In this document: positions 41,356 to 54,773 of the stretch, piece by piece
Layout: the number at the start of each line of letters is the position of its first letter
How positions within the stretch are numbered: position 1 is the stretch's first letter
Assembly (NCBI GenBank): GCA_900557405.1
Contig: USSF01000004.1
Location: 1-56,260, forward strand
Length of the DNA stretch: 56,260 nucleotides
Source: an uncultured Prevotella sp.
GTDB lineage: Bacteria; Bacteroidota; Bacteroidia; Bacteroidales; Bacteroidaceae
Direction of reading: 5' to 3'
Translations under genes and position numbers: made by a program
The notes under the pieces: model-generated
What the model was told of the DNA's origin: nothing
The model's database searches: none
The model's input: the letters and a program-made list of their open reading frames with translations, nothing else

Positions 41356-42663
41356 TTATTTCCGGGGGAAATCCCTGAACGCCACGATACAGGCATACAG
41401 CGGAATGTTCGTCATCCAGTCCTGCTGTCTGTACGGGAGCATGGAGAAGCGCAAACCCTTCAGTCCGGGATTCTTCGTTATGAAGGTTCTGAGGGATTTG
41501 GACTTCACGTTCTCTTCGGCCTTTACCTCTATCGGCACCACATGGTCATGGAATGAAGCGAGGAAATCTATCTCTATCGTGGAATTGTCCACTGAATGAT
41601 AGTAGAGGGAGATGCCTTCGCTTTTCAGTTGGGTGAAAACATACAGTTCGGTGAAAGCTCCCTTGTATTCCGAAAAGACGCTGTCACCCACCAGCATCGA
41701 CTCTGCCGATGCCTCCACCATCGCACCCATCAGCCCCACGTCGAGAATGAAGAGCTTGAAGGCATTCTGGTCTTCATAGAACTTGAACGGCAGGCGCGGA
41801 GCGTTTACCCGCTGCACCTTATACACCAGACCGGCATCCATGAGCCACTGTATGGCAAGTTCGAAATCGGCAGCCCTCGCACTCTTCTTCACGGCTCCAT
41901 ATACAAACTTCTTGTTCTCCCTGGCGAGCTGCGCCGGAATACTGTCCCAAACGAGGTTTATGCGCGGCACCTCGCGCGCCGGAGCATGCTTGGAGAAGTC
42001 GCGGCGATAGTCTCTCAATATCTGCTTCTGGATGGCCCGGACCTCCTTCAGGCCTTTCTGCTCCACATGCGCCAGTACTGCGGCGGGCATTCCTCCCACA
42101 TAATAATATTGCCTCAGCAGACCGGTGAGCTCTGCCCCTACCATATCCATCACGTTCCAGTTTCCGCTTTCCAGCACCTTGGCAAGCTGTGTCTTGCCCA
42201 TGGCATTGAGGAATTCAAGGAATGTCATGGGATACATGCGCATTTCCTCCACCTTCCCTACGGGATAGGACACACCCTCATGAAGCGACAGGCCCAACAA
42301 CGAGCCAGCCACGATGATATGCACATCCGGCGCATCCTCACAGAAGTATTTCAGGGATTCCAACGCCTTGGGGCAATCCTGTATCTCGTCGAACACCAGG
42401 AGCGTATCGCCTGGGGTAATGTCTACCTGACTGATTGCCGACAATGCCATCAGGATGTCACCCGTCGAACCTCCTTTCTCAAACACTTCCCTCGTCTTTT
42501 GGTCGCGGTCTAGACTGAAGAAGGCAAACTTAGGATATTCCCTCTTACCGAATTCGCGCAGAATGTAGGTCTTGCCAACTTGTCTTGCACCATTGAGAAC
42601 CAATGGCTTACGGTCAGTTTTTTTCTTCCACTCCTGCAGCTTTGCATATATCTCCCTTATCAT
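41356..42663 (-). CDS. AAA-type ATPase with DUF4143 (ATP-binding protein)
   Basis: 435 residues. Walker A GARQVGKTY (about 25-33), Walker B LLVFDEIQDCP (about 89-99), then a winged-helix region and DUF4143, ending with a restriction-endonuclease-like stretch SVDNSTIEIDFLASFHDH. This is a large, mobile family of bacterial and archaeal STAND-like ATPases; DNA binding or defence roles are suspected but unproven. It sits alone between two PCMD genes. Its promoter, leader and ATG are embedded in a 33-bp-period repeat array, the last unit of which lies directly before the start codon. Confidence 0.9.
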   Translation of the reverse strand: MIREIYAKLQEWKKKTDRKPLVLNGARQVGKTYILREFGKREYPKFAFFSLDRDQKTREVFEKGGSTGDILMALSAISQVDITPGDTLLVFDEIQDCPKALESLKYFCEDAPDVHIIVAGSLLGLSLHEGVSYPVGKVEEMRMYPMTFLEFLNAMGKTQLAKVLESGNWNVMDMVGAELTGLLRQYYYVGGMPAAVLAHVEQKGLKEVRAIQKQILRDYRRDFSKHAPAREVPRINLVWDSIPAQLARENKKFVYGAVKKSARAADFELAIQWLMDAGLVYKVQRVNAPRLPFKFYEDQNAFKLFILDVGLMGAMVEASAESMLVGDSVFSEYKGAFTELYVFTQLKSEGISLYYHSVDNSTIEIDFLASFHDHVVPIEVKAEENVKSKSLRTFITKNPGLKGLRFSMLPYRQQDWMTNIPLYACIVAFRDFPRK

Positions 42664-42667
42664 ATTT

Positions 42668-42846
42668 CACACTTTTTCTAATGAATATCCGATGCAAATA
42701 TACACTTTTTTCAACGAATAAACAACCAAACTCCACACTTTTTCTGACGAATAAAGCATAAAGTCCCACACTTTTTCTAATGAATAATATATCAATCCAC
42801 ACACTTTTCCTGACGAACAGGCATATCCCCCACCCTCTGACAAACA
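42668..42846 (-). repeat. 33-bp-period direct repeat array around the ATPase promoter
   Basis: Five copies of a 20-bp unit start at 42668, 42701, 42734, 42767 and 42800, exactly 33 bp apart. A decayed sixth is near 42830-42846. The plus-strand consensus is CACACTTTTTCTRAYGAATA; the 13-bp spacers differ from each other. The -7 element (42695-42702) lies between units 1 and 2, so unit 1 forms the mRNA leader and units 2-6 lie upstream of the promoter. Because 33 is a multiple of three the array reads open in one frame as a repeated FVRKSV peptide, but that frame is not joined to the ATPase. Confidence 0.9.
42695..42702 (-). promoter_or_regulatory. Promoter -7 element of the DUF4143 ATPase gene
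   Basis: Minus strand TATATTTG, placing the transcription start at about 42688, one base before repeat unit 1. The usual -33 position falls within repeat units. Confidence 0.6.
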
Positions 42847-42881
42847 AAATCCCGGACCCTCCTTTGACGGAGAATCCGGGA
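42841..42881 (-). terminator. Terminator of the secreted PCMD gene
   Basis: TCCCGGA (42850-42856) pairs with TCCGGGA (42875-42881), with CTCC/GGAG inside. A T-rich run follows on the minus strand and overlaps the decayed end of the 33-bp array. Confidence 0.75.
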
Positions 42882-46440: not shown

Positions 46441-46527
46441 AATCCATAAAAAGCAATACTTTTGCGGATTGTATCCCTTAAAAGTATGGCTTTTTGTGGA
46501 TTCAATTCCAAAAAAGTATTGTTTTTT
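46441..46527. repeat. Inverted repeat plus third copy upstream of the Rpn-type nuclease gene
   Basis: Arms 46441-46463 and 46480-46502 are complementary over 23 bp with two mismatches (AATCCAYAAAAAGCMATACT type). A third, direct partial copy AAAAGTATTGTTTTTT starts at 46512. The three motif starts (46448, 46480, 46512) are spaced 32 bp. The promoter -7 element follows at 46552. Confidence 0.7.
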
Positions 46528-46551
46528 TAAGGAAATGAAAAGGGAAATGCT

Positions 46552-46559
46552 TATATTTG
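46552..46559 (+). promoter_or_regulatory. Promoter -7 element of the Rpn-type nuclease gene
   Basis: TATATTTG, 25 nt before ATG 46584, which makes the in-frame ATG at 46557 unlikely. Confidence 0.6.
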
Positions 46560-46583
46560 CCATCAAATAAGCATCAGACTATT

Positions 46584-47477
46584 ATGGACGAGAACAAATA
46601 CATACGGTTTGACTGGGCGATGAAACGACTGCTCAGACAAAAAGCAAACTTCGGAATCCTTGAGGGTTTGCTTACTACTTTGCTTGGCATGAAGATCAAG
46701 ATCAAGCGGATGCTTGAGAGTGAAAGCAATCAGGATGATGAGTCTGACAAGTATAACCGAGTGGATATGCTTGCAGAGAACGACAAGGGTGAACTGTTCT
46801 TGATTGAGGTGCAGAACAATACGGAATATGCTTACTTCCAGCGTATGCTGTTCGGTACGTCGAAACTTGTTACGGAATATATCAAGAAAGGTGAAGGATA
46901 CGAGAACGTGCGTAAGGTGTACAGTGTGAACATCGTGTATTTCTCTTTGGGCAAGGGATCGGACATTGTTTATCACGGCAAGACAGAGTTCCGTGGCATA
47001 CACAATGGAGACTTGCTTGAACTGAGTCCGTTCCAGAAGCAGAAATTCAACGTTGATGTAGTAAGCGACCTTTATCCCGAGTATTATATAATGAAGGTGA
47101 ACGACTTCAACCGTGTGGCGAAGAACTCCATTGAGGAATGGGCATACTATCTGAATACGGGAGATGTGCCCAAGGGTGCAAAGGCACCAGGTATGGAGGA
47201 AGTTAAGGAACAGCTTACGATAGACCGCATGGACAAGTCGGAACGTTCTGCCTATTACAAGCATCTCGACAATATCGTGATACTCCGCGACAATATATAT
47301 ACGGAACGAGAGGAGGGAAGACTTGAAGGTCGTGCAGAAGGACGAGAAGAAGGACGAGAAGAAGGACGTCTTGAAGAACGCAGACAAAATGCGAAGAAGA
47401 TGAAAGAATTGTCTGTACCCGTTGAAACGATTTCTCAGGTCACAGGCTTGTCTGTTGATGAGATAGACAGTCTGTAG
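46584..47477 (+). CDS. Rpn family / PD-(D/E)XK nuclease transposase-like protein
   Basis: 297 residues from ATG 46584 (MDENKYIRFDWAMKRLLRQK). The nuclease core follows: NRVDMLAENDKGELFLIEVQ (about 62-81) supplies the D and E-x-Q of the PD-(D/E)XK motif, with the YAYFQRMLFGTSKLV helix after it. The C-terminus has a charged repeat region (EGRLEGRAEGREEGREEGR) and a short helical end. Relatives (RpnA-E) promote RecA-independent recombination; they are often strain-variable. Single gene with an inverted repeat at its promoter. Confidence 0.88.
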   Translation: MDENKYIRFDWAMKRLLRQKANFGILEGLLTTLLGMKIKIKRMLESESNQDDESDKYNRVDMLAENDKGELFLIEVQNNTEYAYFQRMLFGTSKLVTEYIKKGEGYENVRKVYSVNIVYFSLGKGSDIVYHGKTEFRGIHNGDLLELSPFQKQKFNVDVVSDLYPEYYIMKVNDFNRVAKNSIEEWAYYLNTGDVPKGAKAPGMEEVKEQLTIDRMDKSERSAYYKHLDNIVILRDNIYTEREEGRLEGRAEGREEGREEGRLEERRQNAKKMKELSVPVETISQVTGLSVDEIDSL

Positions 47478-51851: not shown

Positions 51852-54574
51852 ATGAAGAATAGCATACAGGCATGTGTCATCAGCTTATTGTTGTCGGCAG
51901 TACTCTTCTCTTGTGGCAGGAGGGAACCGAAATTCGTCATAGGCGTTTCGCAATGCAGCGAAGACGTATGGCGCAAGAAGCTCAACGACGAACTGCGCAT
52001 CGCCGCCTTCTCCAACAACAATGTGGAGCTGAAAATATCTTCGGCAAACGATGATGCCGAACTGCAGACCCAGCAGATTGACAGCTTCGTGAAAATGGGT
52101 GTGGACCTGCTCATTGTGGCGCCGGGGCAGATGAAGGTGACCCAGGCTGTGGACAGGGCCTATGACAAGGGAATACCGGTAATCGTGTTCGACCGACGAA
52201 CCCACTCCGACAAATACACGGCATATATCGGGGCGGACAATGAGGAGATGGGGCGCAATATAGCCCACTATCTGTCGTCTTCGGTAGATGGCGCAGAGCG
52301 GATTGTCGAAATATGCGGTCTGTCCACCTCGTCCCCCGCAGTAGACCGCAGGAGCGGATTCGACCAGGAGGTTGCCAAGCATGCCGACATGGATATTGTG
52401 GAGCATATTGAGGCGACTGGACGGAACAGACGGCCTACAGGCAGATGGACTCTATGCTGTCAGTGGCGCATCCGCAATTCAACACGGTATTCGCCCACAA
52501 CGACCGTATGGCAATGGGAGCGAGGAAGGCTGCAATGAAGCACGGACTGGACCCCTCCAAGATACACTTCATTGGTATTGACGCCATATCCAAGGAGGGG
52601 GGCGGAATGCGGCTCGTCAGAGACGGGGAGCTGCTGGCATCATACATCTACCCCACACGTGGCGACAATGTGATGGAGCTTGCTATGAACATCCTGGAGA
52701 AAAGGAAATACAAGAAGGAGAACCTCCTCTCCTCAGCCCTCGTCACAGCCGACAATGCCAACGTGCTGCTCATGCAGGAAGAGGAGATGAAGCGTCAGAC
52801 AGACAATCTGCTCTCGCTGAGGAGAAAGGTGGAAACCACCACCAACGCCTTCGACACGCAGCGTAGCTATCTCTTCATGCTGCTCTTCCTCGTGGTGCTG
52901 CTCATCATCGCATGTATGCTTGCCCTGAAGGCATACATGGCAAAGACCCGATACAACAGACAGATCAAGGACAGCATGCAGAAACAGAAGAAGATGACGG
53001 AAGACATGGAGCGCATGACGCAGAACCAGCTGCGCTTCTTTACCAACATCTCCCACGAACTGCGCACTCCGCTGACGCTGATTTCCGGTCCTGCCGACCA
53101 GCTCGCCGAGAGCCACGACATCGGCAGCGAGCCGCGCAAGCTCGTGGAGATGATACGGCGGAACGTGGGCATCCTGAAGCAGATGGTGGGCGAAATACTT
53201 GAGTTCAGGAAGATACAGAACGAAAAGGCAACGCTCACGCTCAACCGCTTCAACCTTGCAGCAGAGCTGCGCACATGGAGCAATGATTTCATGATGGTGG
53301 CCGAAAGGAAAGACATCAGTCTGAAGGTGTCAATAATGGAAGAAGGCGACGGCATGGCAATCGCCGACAAGGAGAAGGTGGCCCATATCTACTTCAATCT
53401 TATGACCAATGCCCTGAAATACACACCGCCCAAAGGCACTGTCACCACCACGTTGGAGCATGCCCAAGGCAGATACACGATATCCGTGGAAGATACAGGC
53501 AAGGGAATGTCTGCCGCCGACAGGCAGCACATCTTCGAACGCTTCTACCAGGCCAAGGACTCCGTGGGAGGAACCGGCATCGGACTCGCCATAGTGAAGG
53601 CATACGTGGACCTGCACCATGGAGAGGTGCAGGTGGAGAGCGAACAGGGCAGGGGCAGCCGCTTCAGCTTCAGCATACCGGAAAGCCAACCGGGGTATGA
53701 TGCCGCCGCCGACAGACAGACCGAGGCAATGACCGGACCGGTACTGGCCGACGACTATTCCGTGAAGGACATCATCGCCGAGCAGAACCTGGCATCGATT
53801 ACCGGAACGGAAGACTACGACAGCAACCGTCCGCTCATCCTCGTCATCGACGACAACGAGTGCATGCGGACCTATCTGAAGGGTATCCTGCATGCGAAAT
53901 ACAAGGTGATAGAGGCGCAGAACGGAGAGGAAGGACTGAAGATAGCGCGCAAGACCGTGCCGCAGCTCGTGGTCAGCGACGTGATGATGCCCGTTATGGA
54001 CGGAATGGAATTCTGCAGCCGCATGAAAGAGGACATGACGACATGCCACATCCCGGTGATACTCCTCACCGCAAAGTCGCTCGAAGAGCAACGCATCGAG
54101 GGATACAACAAGGGGGCAGACTCCTACATAACAAAGCCCTTCACCGCCGAAACCCTTGTGGCGCGCATCGACAATCTGCTCAAGAACCGCCTGCAGCTGC
54201 GCAGGATATTCTCCGGTTCGTCGCTCGAAGAACAGGAGCAGGAAGCCTTGGGCGAGAAAGACCGCACATTCATAGCCCAGCTCCGCAAGGCGATTAAGAA
54301 GCATATCCCCGACGCCGACTACTCGGTGGAGGACCTCGGTGAGGAGATGGGGCTGAGCCGCGTGCAGCTCTACCGCAAGGTGAAGGCGCTGACCGGATAT
54401 TCCGTGGTAGACCTGCTCCGGAAGGCACGTCTCGCCAAGGCGAAACAGCTGCTCGAAACCACTGAAAAGAATATATCGGAAGTGGCATACGACGTAGGTT
54501 TTACCACTCCCTCATACTTCACCAAGCGCTTCAAGGAAGAATACGGAATGAATCCGGGAGACGTGGGGAAATAA
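51852..54574 (+). pseudogene. Hybrid two-component regulator (HTCS) with periplasmic-binding sensor, broken by a frameshift
   Basis: Read across one lost base near 52415, the gene codes about 907 residues: signal/lipobox (VLFSC), a periplasmic sugar-binding domain of the LacI/ribose type (FVIGVSQCSEDVW to about residue 300), a membrane helix (YLFMLLFLVVLLIIACMLAL), histidine kinase (NISHELRTPLTLI; NALKYTPP; DTGKGM; GTGIGLAI), receiver (LVIDDNE, SDVMMPVMDG, TKPF) and AraC output domain. The upstream piece runs in one frame to 52538, the downstream piece in another from before 52445; VEHIEA should continue DWTEQTAYRQMDSM. Similar in layout to the fructose sensor BT1754. It would control the SusC gene that follows. 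The break may be a real mutation or a sequencing slip in GGCG(G)AC. Confidence 0.85.
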
Positions 54575-54603
54575 ACCGTAAAACACCGCTTCTCCATTCG
54601 TCT

Positions 54604-54679
54604 CACTATAGTGGAACGGTCTTTTCACTATAGTGGAACGCACTTTTCACTATAGTGGGAATGTCTTTTCACTATAGTG
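54604..54679. repeat. Four palindromes CACTATAGTG at exact 22-bp spacing
   Basis: Perfect 10-bp palindromes at 54604, 54626, 54648 and 54670, each followed by GGAAY/GGGAA and preceded (copies 2-4) by TTTT. They lie 30 nt after the HTCS stop and about 235 bp upstream of the second SusC ATG. Two helical turns apart, all on one face of DNA, as expected for cooperative protein binding. Confidence 0.85.
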
Positions 54680-54773
54680 GGAAATGGGACAGACAGCCGT
54701 TATGCTGCCGATGAAACATGGGCGGCTGAATCCTTGATGATATTTTCCGCTTCTTTTCGGGGGGCATAACTGC

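Follow-up and report, generated by a model that had tools for sequence, protein, structure and literature searches.

An array of evenly phased repeats directly upstream of a DUF4143 ATPase gene in an uncultured Prevotella sp. is a feature of the gene's family and is not local. By computation we find the array itself, its conservation among relatives, a fixed register with the promoter, co-variation of its units with the protein and, in several pairs of copies, the borders of the shared DNA. We put the probability at roughly two in three that the array serves the downstream ATPase as a private set of operators, which this protein would bind via its PD-(D/E)XK domain and so repress its own gene. 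The window referred to below is the whole stretch of 56,260 bp that was analyzed.

In the window, five 20-bp units follow one another at steps of exactly 33 bp (Table 1). Three are perfect copies of the consensus, and the other two match it at 18 and 17 of 20 positions; the runner-up 20-mer, on both strands of the whole window, scores 15. Tandem Repeats Finder reports the middle of the array (42733–42817) with a period of 33 and a score of 103. The initial annotation had described five copies at 33-bp steps, unrelated 13-bp spacers, and a decayed sixth copy. The five copies and the mutually unrelated 13-bp spacers are borne out, but the sixth is out of phase: it lies 27 bp, not 33 bp, from unit 5 and has kept only part of the variable half. 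The −7 box was rightly placed between copies 1 and 2, reading TATATTTG at 42702–42695 on the minus strand, and the ATG of the gene (42663, minus strand) stands 4 nt beyond unit 1. A CRISPR array can be dismissed, since CRISPR spacers are about as long as the repeats, 20 bp or more, whereas 20-bp units here alternate with 13-bp spacers.

Table 1. Features of the array and the ATPase gene in the window (plus-strand coordinates)
Feature	Position	Strand	Basis or remark
Repeat unit 1, presumed mRNA leader	42668..42687	-	20/20 consensus match
Repeat unit 2, end overlaps −7 box	42701..42720	-	17/20 consensus match; offset fixed in relatives
Repeat unit 3	42734..42753	-	20/20 consensus match
Repeat unit 4	42767..42786	-	20/20 consensus match
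Repeat unit 5	42800..42819	-	18/20 consensus match
Degenerate out-of-register unit remnant, 27 bp from unit 5	42827..42846	-	read from sequence; weak
−7 promoter box TATATTTG, between units 1 and 2, overlaps unit 2 end	42695..42702	-	sequence
Possible −33 element (TTG), 20 bp upstream of −7 box	42723..42725	-	read from sequence; weak
ATPase gene, 435 aa, AAA_14 + DUF4143, PDC-S01-type	41356..42663	-	Pfam, PADLOC, AF2
Presumed Walker A, residues 25–32, GARQVGKT	42568..42591	-	G25, R27, Q28, G30, K31, T32 invariant, alignment A1
Middle helical / winged-helix-like region (our reading), residues ~205–306	41746..42051	-	secondary structure of AF2 model
Residues 350–412 of C-terminal PD-(D/E)XK domain, co-varying with unit	41428..41616	-	couplings vs tree-based null
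Presumed PD-(D/E)XK active-site motif D366, E379, K381	41521..41568	-	invariant in 64 sequences of A1

Two other repeats occur in the window. At 46441–46545, upstream of an Rpn/PDDEXK_2 gene (46557–47477), a GGATTnnAT..AAAAGTAT-like unit recurs about three times with a period of 32 bp. Relatives of this gene have nothing of the kind by eye, and the repeat may be the orphan array of a lost DUF4143 module. At 54603–54680, a 22-bp unit containing the palindrome CACTATAGTG is repeated 3.5 times between two genes (52445–54574 and 54915 onward) that we ourselves read as two-component regulator-like and SusC-like, respectively.

The protein matches DUF4143 (1.8e-31) and AAA_14 (1.1e-27) in Pfam, both above the cut-offs, and its best match to the PADLOC PDC-S01 profile (E = 9.8e-177) covers residues 1–427; by these matches it is a putative member of the candidate single-gene anti-phage family PDC-S01. 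In the AF2 model (mean pLDDT 88.6), the AAA part has TnsC among its Foldseek matches, and the C-terminal domain matches the folds of McrC, Can2, DdmD, and restriction enzymes. The residues that we take to be the Walker A and PD-(D/E)XK motifs are intact in the window protein, whose sequence is included in the invariant columns of A1.

Related genes carry similar arrays. A first scan, with one genome per species, gave 282 relatives, and the best 80 of these were kept; one locus (L057), with too little upstream DNA, was left out of the repeat test. Among the 80 testable regions, namely 79 loci and the window, 67 had an upstream repeat significant against shuffled sequence, the window's own included, and 63 of those 67 repeats had a period of 32 or 33 bp. 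Control stretches 1.5 kb upstream were significant in 2 of 65 cases. A larger set of 278 raw entries was reduced to 228 proteins by dropping identical, incomplete, and odd-length ones, and to 219 testable proteins because nine lacked enough clean upstream DNA. Upstream repeats were significant in 177 of these 219 non-identical relatives (122 at 33 bp, 43 at 32 bp), so the similar arrays that the initial annotation suggested seeking upstream of other family members do exist. Controls for this set were significant in 1 of 227 cases inside genes and in 21 of 221 downstream of them; of these 21, four had a lag of 33 and one a lag of 32. Among the distant family members, 52 of 67 upstream regions were significant. 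A later set of 97 proteins, two of them unusable for the repeat test, gave 61 of 95, with 58 of the 61 at 32 or 33 bp. A significant upstream repeat was absent from 42 of 219 members in the larger set and 34 of 95 in the later one.

By record titles, which for metagenome bins can be wrong, the loci come from Bacteroidales, Treponema and other Spirochaetes, Lachnospiraceae and other Bacillota, and one Verrucomicrobia bin. Among nine plasmid-borne relatives, five have a significant 32- or 33-bp repeat (Segatella copri, Acinetobacter, Vibrio, Fusobacterium, and Collinsella), those of Glaesserella and Criblamydia have 33- and 32-bp repeats just below the threshold (4 and 2 of 100 shuffles), and those of Bacteroides and Vescimonas have no repeat at 32 or 33 bp. 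The Acinetobacter and Vibrio units are palindromic, of the type CTTTT-N-AAAAG, as if a variable middle were flanked by two core half-sites. No upstream array was found for the Thermus relative, which we take to be TT_P0211. One scan of viral contigs found no close relative, and 13 phage records have weaker matches.

Arrays are not a general trait of ATPase or nuclease genes in these genomes. PF09820 ATPases of the same genomes, with starts set crudely at the first ATG, gave significant upstream repeats in 6 of 29 cases and none of 29 at 32–33 bp (a thirtieth gene, without a usable frame, was left out), and no array was seen by eye at any of the 23 loci inspected out of 24 of Rpn/PDDEXK_2 relatives, one unusable locus (L348) being among the 23. 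One genome (G006) has 39 matches to the PF09820 ATPase family and seven to the DUF4143 ATPase, a heavy load of solitary ATPase-nuclease-like genes. Five members of other DUF4143 subfamilies (372–427 aa) have upstream repeats that look to the eye to be of different design, palindromic at L171, L177, and L181 and with a period of about 24 bp at L187 and L188.

In the main branch of the family, a unit consists of a variable 5′ half followed by the core AAAARTGT. The core is common to many genes and species; the 5′ half is conserved within an array and different between genes. In the 103 arrays of at least three units, positions −12 to +7 are 63%–100% identical between units (68% at the core R), position +8 is 55% identical, and spacer positions are 32%–57% identical. 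Thus, units and spacing are kept while spacers drift. The 174 arrays of at least two units that were obtained from 201 genes contain 297 spacings of 33 bp and 96 of 32 bp. The finder seeks AAAARTGT at 30–36 bp with a preference for 32–33, so these core-identity and spacing counts are partly built in; the repeat tests (67/80, 177/219, and 61/95) are free of this. Distant paralogues have quite different cores with the spacing unchanged.

Paralogues within a genome also differ. A Leyella genome has 15 ATPase matches, and the upstream regions inspected there carry differing units; on one of its contigs an array (L045) is inverted relative to its own gene. Units of paralogues from one genome are no more different than those from different genomes, with means of 5.80 and 5.72 mismatches of 10 in 35 and 1,190 pairs, respectively. 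Active mutual avoidance is therefore not shown, and no extra selection for the mutual insulation of paralogues was found.

The units hold a fixed place in the promoter. The Bacteroidales −7 box is of the type TAnnTTTG, and in 65 of 129 arrays, the window array included, this motif begins at core+7, the last T of AAAARTGT, so that the sites overlap the promoter of the ATPase's own gene. Of 77 occurrences in the scanned range, 68 fall at one single unit offset. One unit therefore lies between the −33 and −7 elements. In a Bacillota promoter (L034) we read a sigma-70 pattern with a unit in the −35/−10 spacer. It is because the units overlap the promoter that we infer repression rather than activation.

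The register also bears on two readings in which the repeats would act other than as DNA sites. As its alternative to operator sites, the initial annotation had offered control at the RNA level, with the repeats acting in the transcript as a leader structure or as protein-binding RNA, and unit 1 does lie in the presumed leader of the window gene. However, the arrays are mostly upstream of the −7 box, and for 32 of the 68 coincidences it is the ATG-proximal unit that carries the box, which would leave the transcript without any unit. As RNA, the window array folds with no unusual stability (z −1.47), and at gathering scores Rfam has no family in it. This alternative is not borne out, and we consider it very improbable. 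Least credible of all is that the array codes for an 11-residue repeat peptide (33 = 3 × 11), or is a recent tandem duplication without function. Two minus-strand frames are indeed open across it (42614–42847 and 42667–42843), but the spacing is not divisible by 3 in 54 of 129 arrays, which breaks the reading frame, and units have been kept while spacers diverged.

Evidence on what may bind the units comes from their co-variation with the protein. Mutual information, corrected for background, was computed between unit consensus sequences and aligned proteins, with DNA simulated along the protein tree as the null. Arrays with a profile score below 540, fewer than two units, or a mean unit identity below 0.62 were left out, giving a first set of 129 arrays and a later one of 52. 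In the first set, 24 of the top 50 pairs fall in residues 350–412, and 22 of these are with bases −9 to −1; 60 tree simulations gave a mean of 8.1 and a maximum of 14. Single couplings are matched by the null: 5 of 60 simulations attain a top coupling as strong as the observed one, and 28 of 60 yield as many pairs above z 5. Thus, what is unusual is the concentration in one domain and not the strength of any single pair. The region was picked after seeing the data, so all 63-residue windows were scanned in simulations too: the observed 24 compare with a highest count of 21 among 200 simulations. Distances by region point the same way, in that the rank correlation with unit distance is 0.33 for residues 350–412, 0.17 for the AAA domain, and 0.14 for residues 231–310, and rank correlation with spacer distance is 0.07.

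Split halves of the first set were uneven (19 of 50 and 12 of 50, weak in one half), and the later set was collected for this reason. None of its 47 proteins used here is more than 90% identical to one in the first set, and one is more than 80% identical. With region and bases preset, these 47 arrays placed 18 of 50 pairs in the domain, whereas 150 null simulations averaged 8.1 and never exceeded 14; for bases −9 to −1 only, the count was 10, reached by 1 of 150. The two strongest pairs of this set lie outside the domain and involve a spacer base (E165:+9 and N170:+9). For the later-set and joint analyses, arrays without TGT in the core were also dropped, together with two (L479_1 and L480_1) removed by eye, leaving 125 and 47. 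In these 172 arrays, 24 of the top 50 pairs fall in residues 350–412, against a null mean of 8.6 and a maximum of 17 in 150 simulations. The strongest joint pairs are K387:−9, I363:−4, S357:−3, and K389:−7; of these, the later set by itself ranks K389:−7, I363:−4, and K387:−9 within its top 11. That the ATPase protein reads its array is, on this co-variation, fairly well supported. The initial annotation had suggested operator sites along one DNA face and named the ATPase as a possible binder; this is supported by the 32- and 33-bp arrays of relatives, the fixed place of the −7 box, and the C-terminal co-variation.

The same data speak to whether the arrays are instead bound by some other host protein, a global regulator in control of the ATPase genes. 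In favor of this, many genes and species share the AAAARTGT core. Nevertheless, units differ between paralogues of one genome and co-vary with the ATPase, and similarly built arrays are found in Bacteroidales, Spirochaetes, and Bacillota as well as on plasmids from other phyla, groups for which we know of no common regulator of this kind. Because of this unit diversity and co-variation we reject a host-wide regulator as quite improbable.

Co-variation indicates reading and not repression, since an equal signal would arise if the protein activated the gene or if its nuclease took the units as substrate. The units may instead be substrate or anchor sites, where the nuclease nicks, cuts, or parks to drive movement or copy control of the module in a homing or transposon-like manner, with the promoter placed there by economy. 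The co-varying domain keeps D366, E379, and K381, TnsC appears among the structural matches, relatives are found on 62 plasmid records, and array and gene together form the common module of several pairs. Borders were judged from one best alignment per pair of copies 84%–99% alike. In several pairs the alignment spans only the stretch from the first units to a few bases beyond the stop codon: L034/L037/L042 (−129 or −137 to +6), L008/L011 (−210 to +8), L202/L203 (−125 to +1), L226/L228 (−115 to +1), L241/L242 (−145 to +16), and L124/L148 (−95 to +2). Among the pairs inspected, there is no likeness in the adjoining ~100 bases upstream or 90 bases downstream. In other pairs the homology extends further into one or both flanks, which is to be expected when genomes are related. 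The pairs whose homology runs from array start to stop codon fit the dedicated control cassette, carried with a mobile gene, that had been proposed at the outset, and in near-identical copies the units were not found to vary at random.

Against substrate or anchor sites stand three observations. First, there is no comparable 3′ array, as the downstream controls above indicate; a two-ended, Tn7-like transposon array is rejected on the same counts. Second, no clean empty site was found in a flank search of 29 genomes of one genus: four strong matches outside the source genome were each followed by other DNA. (Homologues of the window's neighbor gene, found in 25 of 399 genomes at 32%–49% identity, are too distant for a base-level empty site.) Finally, the model does not need the −7 box to sit at a constant position within the unit. 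We therefore consider substrate or anchor sites unlikely and keep to an operator array read by the ATPase itself.

Arrays also occur apart from intact genes. In ten genomes, a pattern of two cores in register gave 93 matches, against four for a backwards control, and 42 loci; 26 of these adjoin a full ATPase and 16 do not. A translated search found ATPase remnants directly downstream of four arrays (L363, L368, L370, and L374), and a fifth (L367) is followed by what reads as an ATPase start. These five of the 16 show a remnant; the rest are unexplained or due to chance. Seven arrays (L363, L364, L366, L367, L370, L374, and L375) have the design of ATPase arrays with no intact ATPase, and four (L363, L367, L370, and L374), with their fragments of ATPase start or end, are apparent scars of decayed modules. 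On viral contigs, 42 stretches have three cores in register, three with an ATPase downstream; 19 of the 42 show some likeness between units, several in apparent coding repeats, and two (L522 and L543) have family-like units with no ATPase in the DNA examined. This viral-contig evidence neither supports nor excludes phage decoy arrays.

It is useful to contrast the array with known systems. Orc1/Cdc6 proteins bind ORB origin boxes through their AAA core and a C-terminal winged helix. The window ATPase resembles them in its AAA core fold (2qby, 1w5t, ORC) and in having several putative binding boxes in DNA; here, by contrast, it is an additional C-terminal nuclease-fold domain that co-varies with the box, the sites lie in the gene's own promoter, and no origin role is indicated. 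Avs proteins have a long sensor repeat domain. Compared with these and other STAND/NLR-type immune ATPases (Arch-ATPases such as 2qen and 2fna), the window protein, of 435 residues, has no such domain but has its own DNA array, and the fold that the model appears to share with them shows no function. Tn7 ends carry TnsB sites in a row that overlap a promoter repressed by the transposase itself. The likeness lies in a row of sites, here putative, for the element's own protein over the promoter; the difference is that only one end and a single gene are involved here.

A search of open-access journal papers for such arrays, for related ATPases and regulators, and for the origin of the PDC names found no description of the array. 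In the accessible part of one survey, PDC-S01 is an ATPase domain fused to the PD-(D/E)XK superfamily, has 9,986 archaeal and 29,494 bacterial occurrences, and ranks as the fourth most common defense across prokaryotes, with most such candidates still awaiting experimental validation (PMC12988326). That part of the survey mentions neither an upstream array nor regulation, whereas the window member has an array. CapW, BrxR, and RptR, by the portions of the reports available, are repressors of defense-gene transcription (PMC9122588, PMC9122601, PMC12255303) and thus separate regulators; in the present case, promoter reading seems to fall to the immune candidate itself, by way of a phased multi-unit array. 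An available excerpt of another study gives a 6.6-fold rise of Thermus TT_P0211 (AAA 14, DUF4143) with a plasmid present, only if Argonaute is also present (PMC4406477). This is suggestive only and, since the Thermus gene shows no array, is no test of the array model.

How might such an operator array work? Each 20- to 21-bp unit is a predicted binding site for the ATPase itself. The C-terminal PD-(D/E)XK domain would read the variable 5′ half, while reading of the AAAARTGT core would, at a guess, fall to a different region, possibly the winged-helix-like one. A spacing of 32–33 bp, about three helical turns, would align several molecules along the same side of the promoter DNA. Bound protein would exclude RNA polymerase, giving steep self-repression of the ATPase-nuclease. 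We infer this binding, repression, and cooperativity from the observations above. The array would travel with its gene as one small module and diversify alongside it. Release from the array under phage or plasmid attack may, as a further guess, raise the level of the protein.

The invariant catalytic residues seem odd for a mere repressor, and because of them the protein may also have nuclease activity once it is released or activated. A bolder form of the model, which we hold as possible if doubtful, makes the array part of the defense: an inactive, DNA-bound ATPase-nuclease oligomer would be held at its own promoter, and competition from invading DNA or a changed nucleotide state would bring derepression and nuclease release in one event, with the couplings as the start of a recognition code.

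If true, the couplings 360:−1, 357:−3, 363:−4, 362:−5, 389:−7, and 387:−9 would begin such a code for a large family of nuclease-fold DNA readers, and each array-bearing member of an abundant putative immune family would have a private DNA address. The conserved partner element indicates a likely destination of the protein, a DNA-reading domain, and a possible gene switch, and it offers a ready ligand for assays. With one array per gene and many arrays per genome, the family would supply matched DNA–protein pairs for studying how PD-(D/E)XK specificity changes. Orphan arrays of lost genes, finally, may mark past modules.
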